From Alloalcanivorax marinus (GTDB lineage: Bacteria > Pseudomonadota > Gammaproteobacteria > Pseudomonadales > Alcanivoracaceae), in the NCBI RefSeq assembly GCF_016906305.1, contig NZ_JADDOL010000007.1:62001-126000 (forward strand): DNA of 64,000 nucleotides. Direction: 5' to 3'. A program made the position numbers and the translations under genes. Shown piece by piece: positions 13,470 to 57,260 of this stretch. Numbering within the stretch: the stretch's first letter is position 1; every line of letters begins with the position of its first letter. The notes below the pieces were generated by a model. It made no database searches, had not been told where the DNA came from, and was given only the letters and a program-made list of their open reading frames with translations.

Positions 13470-13560
13470 GGAGAGGTGGGTGAGTGGCTGAAACCAGTTC
13501 CCTGCTAAGGAACCATACGTATTACTCGTATCGAGGGTTCGAATCCCTCCCTCTCCGCCA
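13470..13560 (+). tRNA. tRNA-Ser (GCU)
   Basis: 91 bases with CCA encoded. The acceptor GGAGAGG pairs with CCTCTCC, the anticodon stem GTTCC/GGAAC encloses loop CTGCTAA (anticodon GCT, reads AGC/AGU), a long variable arm follows, and the T arm is GAGGG-TTCGAAT-CCCTC. The long variable arm is the class II serine hallmark. Confidence 0.97.
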
Positions 13561-13614
13561 GATACAAAAAAGCCCGGCTCAGGCCGGGCTTTTTTGTATC
13601 TGGCGGAGAGGGAG
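13547..13614 (+). terminator. tRNA-Ser terminator inside a 32-bp perfect hairpin
   Basis: The core terminator is AGCCCGGC-TCAG-GCCGGGCT (13571-13590) followed by six T. The pairing does not stop there: it continues without mismatch to a 32-base-pair stem whose left arm is the last 14 bases of the tRNA gene plus the spacer and whose right arm (13583-13614) is their exact mirror copy. See findings. Confidence 0.9.
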
Positions 13615-13744
13615 CAGGATTCTGAACCCTCCGGTTCGACCGAACGGCGCAAAGCGCCGTGAGGGGCGTCACCGCAAGGCGGTGACGGGGCGAAGCCCCG
13701 AGCGAAGCGAGCCAATCCCTCCCTCTCGGCGCGCAAAGCGCGCC
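13601..13744. repeat. hairpin-rich tRNA-tail element
   Basis: After the mirrored tRNA end come perfect hairpins with three-base loops at 13632-13642, 13644-13660, 13667-13687, 13687-13699 and 13728-13744. A second direct copy of 14 tRNA 3'-end bases (AATCCCTCCCTCTC) lies at 13714-13727, 172 bases after the one inside the gene. No protein gene is credible here. The whole 13561-13847 stretch is otherwise empty. Confidence 0.7.
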
Positions 13745-45662: not shown

Positions 45663-47150
45663 ATGGCGGAAAGCCTTTCCCCGACCCCGTCTCCACCGCC
45701 GGAACACGACCGCCGGCTCGCTCCCCGGGACGCCTTTCAATGGGCCTTCGATGCCCAGGCCGCGCGCCAGTGGCAGCAGGCCGCCCGCCGCTGGGCCACG
45801 CTGCGCGCGGTCTACCCGGATCATCCGCCGGTCTGGATCCAGGCGGCGGTGGCGTTGCGCGAGCTGGGCAGCCACGACGAAGCGCGGCACCTGCTGGCGG
45901 AGGCCCGGGCCCGCTTCGAGACCCATCCCGGCGGCTGGGTCCAGGGCGCCAACACCGCCCTGGCCGACGGCGACACCGCGCTGGCGGCGCGCCTGCTGGA
46001 AGAAGCTCGCCAGCGTTTTCCCGACGATCCGCCGGTATGGGTACGCAGCGCCCACCTGGCCCTGGCCACCGGCGATCGGGAAGGGGCTCTGCGCTTTAAC
46101 CGCCACGCCCGCGACGCCTTTCCGGAATGGGCGCCGGCCTTCGATCAACACGCCGAGCTGGCCATGGCCGCCGGCGACTGGGACAGCGCGCGACAACGCT
46201 GGGCCGAAGTGCGCCGCCGTTTCCCGGACCACCCCCCGGGCTATCGCCGCGCCGCCGAGGTGGAGGAGCGGCAAGGCCGCCACCGGGAGGCCCGCCGCCT
46301 GCGGCTCGCCGAGGAACACGGCCTGGACTGGCTGGAAGAAAGCGACCCGGCCGAGCCGCCGGCGGTGGCGCCACCGCGCCGCCGCGACGGGCGCAATTTC
46401 ATCGACCTGGTGTGGACCAAGGCCCGCCTCAACCTGAAATCCGAAGCCAACCGCAACCACCTGCGTTACCTCTGGTGGGTGATCGACCCGCTGTCGTACA
46501 TGGCGGTCTTCTATGTGGTGTTCGGGCTGCTGCTGAACCGGGGCGGCGAGGGCTTCGTCGCCTATCTGCTCACCGGGCTGGTGCCGTTCCAGTGGTTCGC
46601 CAAAACCGTGCAGCACGCCTCCAACACCATCGTCGAAGGGCGCGGCCTGATGAATCAGGTGCGTATCTCGCCGTTGTTTTTCCCGCTGGTGGCGGTGGTG
46701 CAAAACGCCGGCAAGCAGACCCTGGTGTTTCTGATGCTGGCGGTTTTCCTGCTGCTCTATGGACTCGCGCCCACCGTTCACTGGCTGGCCCTGGTGCCGG
46801 TGGTGCTGGTGCAGTTACTGCTGATGGTGGGGGTCGGCTGTGGCCTGGCGATGATCATCCCGTTCGTCCGCGACCTGATCAACCTGGTGCCCACCGGCCT
46901 GCAGTTCCTGCTGTTCGCCAGCGGCGTGTTCTACACCCTGGACACCATCCCCGAACGCTGGCGTGACCTGTTCATGGTCAACCCCCTCGCCAACCTGTTG
47001 CACCAATACCGCCTGATTCTGCTCGATCACCAATGGCCGGACTGGAGCCAGCTGGGCTGGCTGACGCTGGGCTGCGTGATCGGCCTGGTGGTGGTGATCC
47101 TCGCCTACCGCCGGCTGGAAGGGGTGTTTCCTCGGGTGGTGGTGGAATGA
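45663..47150 (+). CDS. Wzm-type polysaccharide ABC permease with N-terminal TPR-like domain
   Basis: 495 residues, about twice the usual Wzm (250-270). Residues about 18-230 are helical repeats spaced by about 34 residues (WATLRAVYPDHPPVWIQAA, ARFETHPGGWVQGANTALAD, RQRFPDDPPVWVRSAHLALA, RRRFPDHPPGYRRAAEV), a TPR/HAT-like array. From about 242 an ABC-2 membrane domain follows (IDLVWTKARLNLKSEANRNH, YLWWVIDPLSYMAVFYVVFG, six helices). It pairs with the ATPase whose ATG overlaps its stop. Confidence 0.87.
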   Translation: MAESLSPTPSPPPEHDRRLAPRDAFQWAFDAQAARQWQQAARRWATLRAVYPDHPPVWIQAAVALRELGSHDEARHLLAEARARFETHPGGWVQGANTALADGDTALAARLLEEARQRFPDDPPVWVRSAHLALATGDREGALRFNRHARDAFPEWAPAFDQHAELAMAAGDWDSARQRWAEVRRRFPDHPPGYRRAAEVEERQGRHREARRLRLAEEHGLDWLEESDPAEPPAVAPPRRRDGRNFIDLVWTKARLNLKSEANRNHLRYLWWVIDPLSYMAVFYVVFGLLLNRGGEGFVAYLLTGLVPFQWFAKTVQHASNTIVEGRGLMNQVRISPLFFPLVAVVQNAGKQTLVFLMLAVFLLLYGLAPTVHWLALVPVVLVQLLLMVGVGCGLAMIIPFVRDLINLVPTGLQFLLFASGVFYTLDTIPERWRDLFMVNPLANLLHQYRLILLDHQWPDWSQLGWLTLGCVIGLVVVILAYRRLEGVFPRVVVE

Positions 47151-56993: not shown

Positions 56994-57023
56994 AAAAAGG
57001 GCCTACCCGATGGATAGGCCCTT
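56994..57023. terminator. bidirectional terminator
   Basis: Nine-base-pair stem AAGGGCCTA/TAGGCCCTT with a nine-base loop. Five T follow on the minus strand; a T-rich tail follows on the plus strand. It can serve the lipoprotein gene and also ends the tRNA-Asn downstream region, where it follows a second copy of the tRNA tail. Confidence 0.75.
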
Positions 57024-57024
57024 C

Positions 57025-57136
57025 TATTTGGCTCCCCCGGCCCCTCGGCCTGCATGCCGAGGGGCGTTCGCAGGGTGAAAGCGGTGCTTTCACAATTCCC
57101 TGCTCACCCTGCTGGGCTACGCCAGGTAAACATTCA
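57025..57136. repeat. hairpin-rich tRNA-Asn tail element
   Basis: Holds a second direct copy of the tRNA-Asn 3' end and flank (TATTTGGCTCC, 57025-57035; the gene's own is at 57181-57191). Perfect hairpins lie at 57040-57065 (ten pairs) and 57075-57093 (eight pairs, GGT loop), with an eight-pair CAGGGTGA/TCACCCTG at 57071/57104. No gene is credible here. Confidence 0.65.
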
Positions 57137-57190
57137 GAGCCAAATAAAAAACCCCGACATCTTTCGATGCCGGGGTTCTTTATTTGGCTC
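57137..57190 (-). terminator. tRNA-Asn terminator inside a mirrored tail hairpin
   Basis: On the minus strand the core is a CCCC(G)GCATC-GAAA-GATG hairpin followed by six T. Pairing continues outward to 25 positions with two mismatches, so that the tRNA 3' end GAGCCAAATA is mirrored 43 bases downstream. Same design as at tRNA-Ser. Confidence 0.85.
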
Positions 57191-57260
57191 CGCCTGCTGG
57201 GCTCGAACCAGCGACCCGCTGATTAACAGTCAGCTGCTCTACCAACTGAGCTAAGGCGGA
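57185..57260 (-). tRNA. tRNA-Asn (GUU)
   Basis: 76 bases with CCA encoded. TCCGCCT pairs with AGGCGGA; D loop AGTTGGTA; anticodon loop CTGTTAA (GUU); T arm CTGGTTCGAGCCCAG. All standard features are present. Confidence 0.97.

Follow-up and report, generated by a model that had tools for sequence, protein, structure and literature searches.

The RtT RNA (RttR; Rfam RF00391) was described from the tyrT operon of Escherichia coli, and for decades rtT was a curiosity of this one operon, with an unclear function. Repeats of tRNA ends are also produced by genomic islands that enter at the 3' ends of tRNA genes (att sites), where a direct repeat of the tRNA end bounds the inserted DNA and an intact tRNA gene is restored. 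Northern blots have shown small RNAs of the RtT family adjoining the tRNA-Asn and tRNA-Lys genes of Actinobacillus pleuropneumoniae, according to sections of a paper whose authors cite a modulatory effect of RtT on the stringent response (PMC4986893). Excerpts from two further papers report covariation support for RtT (PMC8250186) and a resemblance of some enterobacterial BIME attenuators to rtT (PMC2965389), while the term 'RtT' is absent from the main text of a study on the small RNAs of Alcanivorax dieselolei (PMC9788540). Among the open-licence papers searched we found no report of an rtT family that adjoins many tRNAs and follows their sequence, which is not proof of absence.

Here we report the analysis of a 64,000-nucleotide stretch of the Alloalcanivorax marinus genome (the window), in which the tRNA-Asn gene is followed by 156 bp that form an exact insertion relative to related genomes. 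Similar units were identified at many tRNA genes and at the tmRNA gene. We consider it fairly probable that the 156 bp represent a tRNA-side repeat unit, namely a degenerate partial tRNA copy with hairpin cassettes, which arises and turns over as tandem copies and is kept as a structured RNA. Below, G numbers denote genomes (G000 is that of the window), C numbers contigs and L numbers loci. The locus is read in the minus-strand direction, so that downstream of the gene means falling coordinates, and its parts are as follows.

57185..57260, minus strand: tRNA-Asn (gtt) with encoded CCA (ARAGORN; Rfam RF00005, 69.5 bits)
57166..57190, minus strand: gene end (6 nt), trailer and the new terminator's first arm, with a mirror image at 57137-57161
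57137..57161, minus strand: mirrored tail together with the terminator's second arm (inverted repeats; basal-stem fold)
57037..57117, minus strand (G000:C54:119037-119117): class B core with a D-arm-like stretch, nested hairpins and a last hairpin (model R2, 102 bits, the sequence itself being in the R2 training set)
57075..57093, minus strand: perfect hairpin GTGAAAGC-ACC-GCTTTCAC of the class B core (read from the sequence)
57040..57065, minus strand: last hairpin of the class B core (inverted repeat)
57025..57035, minus strand: direct copy of the tRNA tail, exact over 11 nt, at the edge of the 156-bp unit (direct repeat; alignment A6)
about 56995..57024, minus strand: original (ancestral) tRNA-Asn terminator hairpin (alignment A6)

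The tRNA-Asn gene is thus followed by the new terminator, the mirrored tail, the hairpins, the direct tail copy and the old terminator. This layout agrees with the first-pass annotation, which had described an inverted repeat, hairpins, a tail copy of 11 bases located 156 bases away and a second terminator-like hairpin. The same annotation had read the terminator stem as a mirror of the gene end. The inverted repeat (57137-57161 with 57166-57190) does span 25 nt with two mismatches (92% complementary, 4-nt loop), but only 6 of the 25 mirrored pairs lie inside the gene, the other 19 being trailer and terminator stem. Of the hairpins described as perfect, that at 57075-57093 is so, and the arms of the other (57040-57052/57053-57065) are 92% complementary. 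The direct repeat (57025-57041 versus 57181-57197) is 88% identical over 17 nt at a spacing of 156, with the first 11 nt exact. According to the predicted fold, the stretch 57137-57149 could alternatively pair with the direct tail copy, the mirrored and direct tails thereby forming an 11-bp basal (closing) stem of the unit. Compared with shuffled sequences, the fold of tRNA-Asn plus unit has z = -9.8 and that of the unit alone z = -5.2. A simple terminator scan found no sites at this locus, probably because the T run is itself paired. As the terminator stands between tRNA-Asn and the unit, transcription of the unit may be rare.

The history of the insertion was reconstructed from the adjoining gene, which we take to encode an aspartate-aminotransferase-like protein. 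A query with this protein returned 12 loci of the same genus, the window's own included, and tRNA-Asn lies beside the gene in all 12. In G009, G004 and G006 the site is empty, with tRNA-Asn standing directly before a hairpin that corresponds to the second terminator of the window, and in the window's genome and in G003 the site is longer by exactly 156 bp, with the tail copy as the boundary (alignment A6). Therefore, the second terminator predates the insertion, and the new terminator came with the unit. The neighbour protein of G009 is 100% identical to that of the window; since G003 has the unit and the closer G009 lacks it, the simplest history would be an ancestral gain followed by an exact loss in G009. 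Four other genomes (L128-L131) have different units at the Asn site, which consist of the 3' part of tRNA-Asn with hairpins replacing the anticodon loop and the variable region; the L128 units bear the variant anticodon stem of their own host.

A simple remnant of a second tRNA-Asn gene is ruled out by the empty sites in the three relatives. The broader account by ordinary tandem decay, in which a second tRNA-Asn gene degenerated, its tail and terminator survived and the hairpins are incidental, appears very improbable to us. It would explain the tail and D-arm-like remains together with the second terminator, and the tandem tRNA-Arg copy of G009 described below is of the expected kind; however, the relatives have no second gene at their empty sites, and the cores recur and have a structure unlike that of random decay, the fold of the unit having z = -5.2.

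To place the tail copies in a genomic context, we collected 192 distinct tRNA 3' flanks from five genomes of the genus, covering most, though not all, of their tRNAs. In the swapped-tail control, which took in 136 of the 192 flanks (the remainder being too short or closely followed by another tRNA), the last 25 nt of each tRNA were compared with the flanks of tRNAs for other amino acids in the same genome. Mirrored scores of at least 12 were reached by 4 of the 29 usable tRNAs of the window's genome versus 0 of 728 control comparisons, and direct scores of at least 11 by 8 of the 29 versus 0.27% of the controls. The fewest mirrored tails were found in G002, where none of 27 tRNAs scored at least 11. 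Behind the 42 protein genes of the window, a mirrored score of at least 10 occurred once and a direct score of at least 10 twice (one reaching 16). As a genome-wide pattern, mirrored and copied tails are far above the swapped-tail control; the mirrored tail of tRNA-Asn is weak evidence when taken alone. Its score of 6 falls within the control range, and the direct score of 11 at the same gene exceeds nearly all controls. The claim that the mirrored Asn tail by itself goes beyond chance is ruled out by this score and by the 6 nt that lie in the gene.

The window contains a second tRNA with a comparable unit.

13470..13560, plus strand: tRNA-Ser (gct), host of the companion unit (ARAGORN)
13606..13727, plus strand: rtT-like structured unit of class A, 3' of tRNA-Ser (92.2 bits with model R1, E 2.2e-19, a close G009 orthologue of this unit being in the R1 training set)

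Many class A units share a common plan, with the mirrored tail, GAACC...GGTTCGAC, a hairpin, GCAGGRCG or GCGACGAGCG, and a second hairpin, followed by CCCCGAAGGGG or GGGGCGAAGCCCC, a hairpin, and ATCAATCC with the host tail. Many class A tails in this genus end before CCA. The structural model R1, built from 11 class A units taken from other tRNAs, matched all 13 genomes of the genus (E<=0.01), as well as 32 of the 115 order genomes and 72 of the 274 class genomes sampled (E<=1e-3). A same-strand tRNA was located upstream, within 450 nt, in 27 of the 29 new class loci fetched (farthest 417 nt), and the remaining two lie near contig ends behind the tail copy of another unit. Across the genus and order, 48 of the 57 R1 loci contain a tRNA; the nine others include L309, a tmRNA locus (ARAGORN), and several with tRNA- or tmRNA-like tails by eye. 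Twenty further genus and order loci comprised 15 with a tRNA, three with a tmRNA and two without a recognised gene. All four rtT units of E. coli K-12 are found by R1 as well, with scores of 29-35 bits and E values between 5e-6 and 1e-4.

In the reverse direction, the Rfam RtT model matched a tRNA-Tyr unit of G005 with 37.4 bits (E 2e-5) and other class A units with 21-24 bits. At the RF00391 gathering cut-off of 45 there were no matches in the window, and the best score in the genus genomes searched was 37.4 bits. Among the 274 class genomes the RtT model matched 50, 18 of them above the cut-off and often at R1 coordinates. By this reciprocal search the tRNA-Ser unit of the window shares the structural model of rtT, and both window units lie 3' of their tRNA and carry a tail copy. 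The Ser and Asn loci had been proposed to follow one design; they are related in kind, but their cores differ, since R1 matches the Ser unit and not the Asn unit.

Several other arrangements were seen in the same genomes. At the tmRNA genes of L324:1229-1777 (G000:C45), L326, L336 and L309, an rtT-like unit lies behind the gene's own terminator; in L324 the unit has a mirrored tail, and its first hairpin is the class B GCGAAGCACCGCTTCGC hairpin. Other kinds of tail copies with hairpins occur at Gly(gcc) (L008 and L203), Leu(gag) (L026/L212) and Met (L013/L185) tRNAs, and some copies of these types are present at the gene of one genome and absent at its orthologue.

The class A fold is kept by compensatory changes. 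In the 11-unit set, at most 1 of 500 shuffles reached any of five covariation measures. A wider alignment (A5) of 92 matches (91 distinct rows) was fitted to the R1 structure and includes one antisense match (L277, plus strand) besides units on which R1 was trained; in it 85.8% of the cells pair, two-sided changes occur in 41 of the 42 pairs, none of 500 shuffles reaches any measure, and sliding the partners removes the signal. On the tRNA-sense strand, G.U cells outnumber A.C cells by 192 to 116, and by 115 to 40 in the inner helices, 49 of the 115 inner-helix G.U cells being one conserved pair. This excess fits an RNA read in the tRNA direction. We considered a convergent antisense tRNA-like gene that shares the terminator, and the excess of G.U over A.C favours the tRNA-sense strand instead. 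A function as single-stranded DNA hairpins was also considered because of the closing triloops, most of which are C(GNA)G (130 of 212 counted in the 25 commonest triloop types); loops of this kind are very stable in DNA.

The class A tail copies track the host tRNA. We took 67 class A units from loci that contain a same-strand tRNA no more than 450 nt away, and compared each direct copy with the tail of its own host and with other tails of the same amino acid: the own host was better in 601 comparisons, tied in 61 and worse in 12. Among 31 distinct tails it was best or tied for 56 of the 67 units; the mirrored arm tracks the host less (30 of 67). The first-pass annotation had suggested testing whether differences between orthologous tRNAs are matched in the tail copies, and this test was positive. 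Of the processes it had proposed, a selected RNA structure and duplication are both supported, and strand-switching is unnecessary. The former is best supported for the tRNA-Ser type because of the two-sided changes in 41 of 42 pairs over 91 distinct rows, the observed values being reached in none of the 500 shuffles; the latter is supported by the tandem units, the exact empty sites and the tandem tRNA-Arg copy with its D-loop cassette.

Strand-switching could produce long palindromes over terminators. As a full explanation it would require one template switch at the terminator hairpin that writes the mirrored tail, another at the T-arm that writes the forward copy, and palindrome correction that keeps the arms perfect. 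Two such switches are expected to give the order of forward tail, terminator, reverse tail and forward tail; near-perfect mirrored stretches of 31-34 nt run from the terminator into the gene at Arg(ccg), Phe and Ser(gct), and trailer and mirror co-vary between genomes. This replication artefact would, however, leave unexplained the hairpin cassette and the conserved unpaired motifs that are common to different tRNAs and families, as well as the excess of G.U over A.C, and we regard it as quite unlikely.

The tRNA-Asn unit is of a second type (class B), in which a hairpin cassette lies inside an apparent degenerate tRNA copy. The core common to the Asn and tRNA-Glu units comprises GGTGAGC, a closing stem, the GCACCGC hairpin, GCGAACGCC and the last hairpin; its stems are compensated, and the hairpin at 57075-57093 has a covarying partner in the tRNA-Glu units (alignment A4). 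The class B model R2, derived from six sequences with the Asn unit included, matched 8 of the 13 genus genomes and 18 of the 115 order genomes. Of 23 R2 loci inspected in the genus, eight have a cognate tRNA (Asn, Glu, Arg) and 15 have no tRNA, being mostly interspersed palindromic repeats. Among ten new R2 loci in the order, five are copies of the 5' part of a tRNA upstream of the cognate gene (four Arg, one Pro), four have no same-strand tRNA, and one lies 3' of tRNA-Asn in another family (G075). The latter unit has a copy of the D-arm, GCTCAGTTGG, at its start and GGAGCCA at its end, and the Asn unit can thus be read as a degenerate copy of the tRNA with hairpins in place of arms. The clearest step in unit formation is provided by G009, where two tRNA-Arg(cct) copies stand in tandem (L359 / L190; G009:C18 near 45979-46180, minus strand): the second has a class B cassette in its D-loop and intact anticodon, T and acceptor 3' parts, and G000 has a single gene at this place.

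Rfam searches gave no convincing match at the Asn unit, and the TwoAYGGAY model (RF01731) had none there (L344, E<=1). Membership of the Asn unit in RtT by model is ruled out, R1 being silent near 57000-57200 at E<=10 and an RtT match being absent.

The tRNA-free interspersed palindromic repeats (L355-L373, for example L356 at G000:C31:13069-13149) are about 250 bp long by eye and contain the class B core; their outer arms vary between copies yet remain complementary. A TwoAYGGAY RNA match of 53 bits was found at L128:3427-3542, and a comparison of L360 and L366 with this repeat suggests by eye that the class B core fills one hairpin loop that is empty in L128. At the tRNA-Arg(ccg) gene of G003 (L208:60-420), the leader and the 5' end up to the D-loop have a second copy upstream at a distance of about 185 bp, a class B cassette separates the two copies, and an rtT-like unit lies downstream of the gene.

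We propose that the repeat units would arise as tandem partial copies of a tRNA gene, and that the loops and arms of the spare copy would be replaced by hairpin cassettes. Recombination between the tail repeats, or slippage, could then remove units or raise their number. Read-through RNA would fold compactly into several hairpins closed by a tRNA-like stem, and the unit would be maintained for this structure; tRNA-processing enzymes might release the RNA at this stem, by analogy with a proposal for RttR of E. coli. In E. coli K-12 the annotation of RttR (complement 1287066-1287236) stops precisely at the copied CCA, as would suit a release by tRNA-processing enzymes. That the class B Asn unit would be under the same selection as class A is an extrapolation from class A and a few relatives.

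The exact insertion with its 11-nt tail repeat also bears on an account at the DNA level, in which mobile hairpin cassettes enter the loops of tRNA-gene copies and other stem-loops. A recombinase or a single-strand transposase would move them in trans, and the duplicated end would restore the intact tRNA, as with genomic islands. Units are present or absent at Asn, Leu(gag) and Gly(gcc) between close genomes and form tandem arrays, and the class B core is also found away from tRNAs, in L360/L366 inside the hairpin loop of a TwoAYGGAY-like repeat, a loop empty in L128. On the other hand, the unit has no coding room, the cores vary between tRNAs while the ends fit each host, the class A structure is conserved across the class, more like a maintained RNA, and the exact losses can be explained by plain recombination between tail repeats. 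We therefore consider mobile cassettes unlikely and prefer a structured RNA derived from partial tRNA copies. A doubtful but broader scheme would be a modular tRNA-derived family hosted by bacterial tRNA genes. It would comprise rtT-like 3'-half copies that lie downstream and have hairpins in the T-loop, class B 5'-half copies that lie mostly upstream and have theirs behind the D-arm, and a class B core freed as interspersed repeats that enter the hairpin loops of other repeats. In kind, such a family might correspond in bacteria to the tRNA-derived SINEs, its ends being rewritten for each host tRNA.

If the units are one family, it is present in about a quarter of the sampled class genomes, beside many tRNAs and tmRNA, with tails that change with the host. 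Its wide spread and host-following tails would then make its function testable, and tRNA loci would be shown able to generate new structured RNAs.

Among the known systems, BIME and REP elements are likewise palindromic interspersed repeats, and REP-like hairpins were noticed by eye near several loci in these genomes; unlike the units described here, they do not incorporate a copy of an adjacent tRNA. TwoAYGGAY RNA (RF01731) shares its neighbourhood in L360/L366 with the core of class B, which by eye lies inside such a repeat, but it does not match the Asn unit. Like islands integrated into tRNA genes, the Asn insert is surrounded by a direct repeat of the tRNA end and has an empty site in relatives (A6); unlike them, it is 156 bp long and carries no integrase, and the cores at different tRNAs share structure. 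The RtT-family small RNAs of A. pleuropneumoniae are likewise RtT-type RNAs beside other tRNAs, but they are placed upstream of the tRNA genes, and the available sections of the report draw no link to host-following tails (PMC4986893). The closest likeness is to RtT/RttR of the E. coli tyrT operon, with a position 3' of the tRNA, frequent tandem arrangement, a tail copy at the 3' edge, a multi-hairpin fold and models that match each other's units. In contrast to RtT, the units described here occur at Ser, Arg, Phe, Gly, Glu, Gln, Tyr and other tRNAs and at tmRNA, those of the genus genomes searched fall below the Rfam cut-off, and they are preceded by terminators and long mirrored tails. We class the tRNA-Ser unit with the RtT kind, as a distant member, whereas the Asn unit, matched by neither R1 nor RtT, is tied to class A only by its anatomy and shared hairpin motifs.
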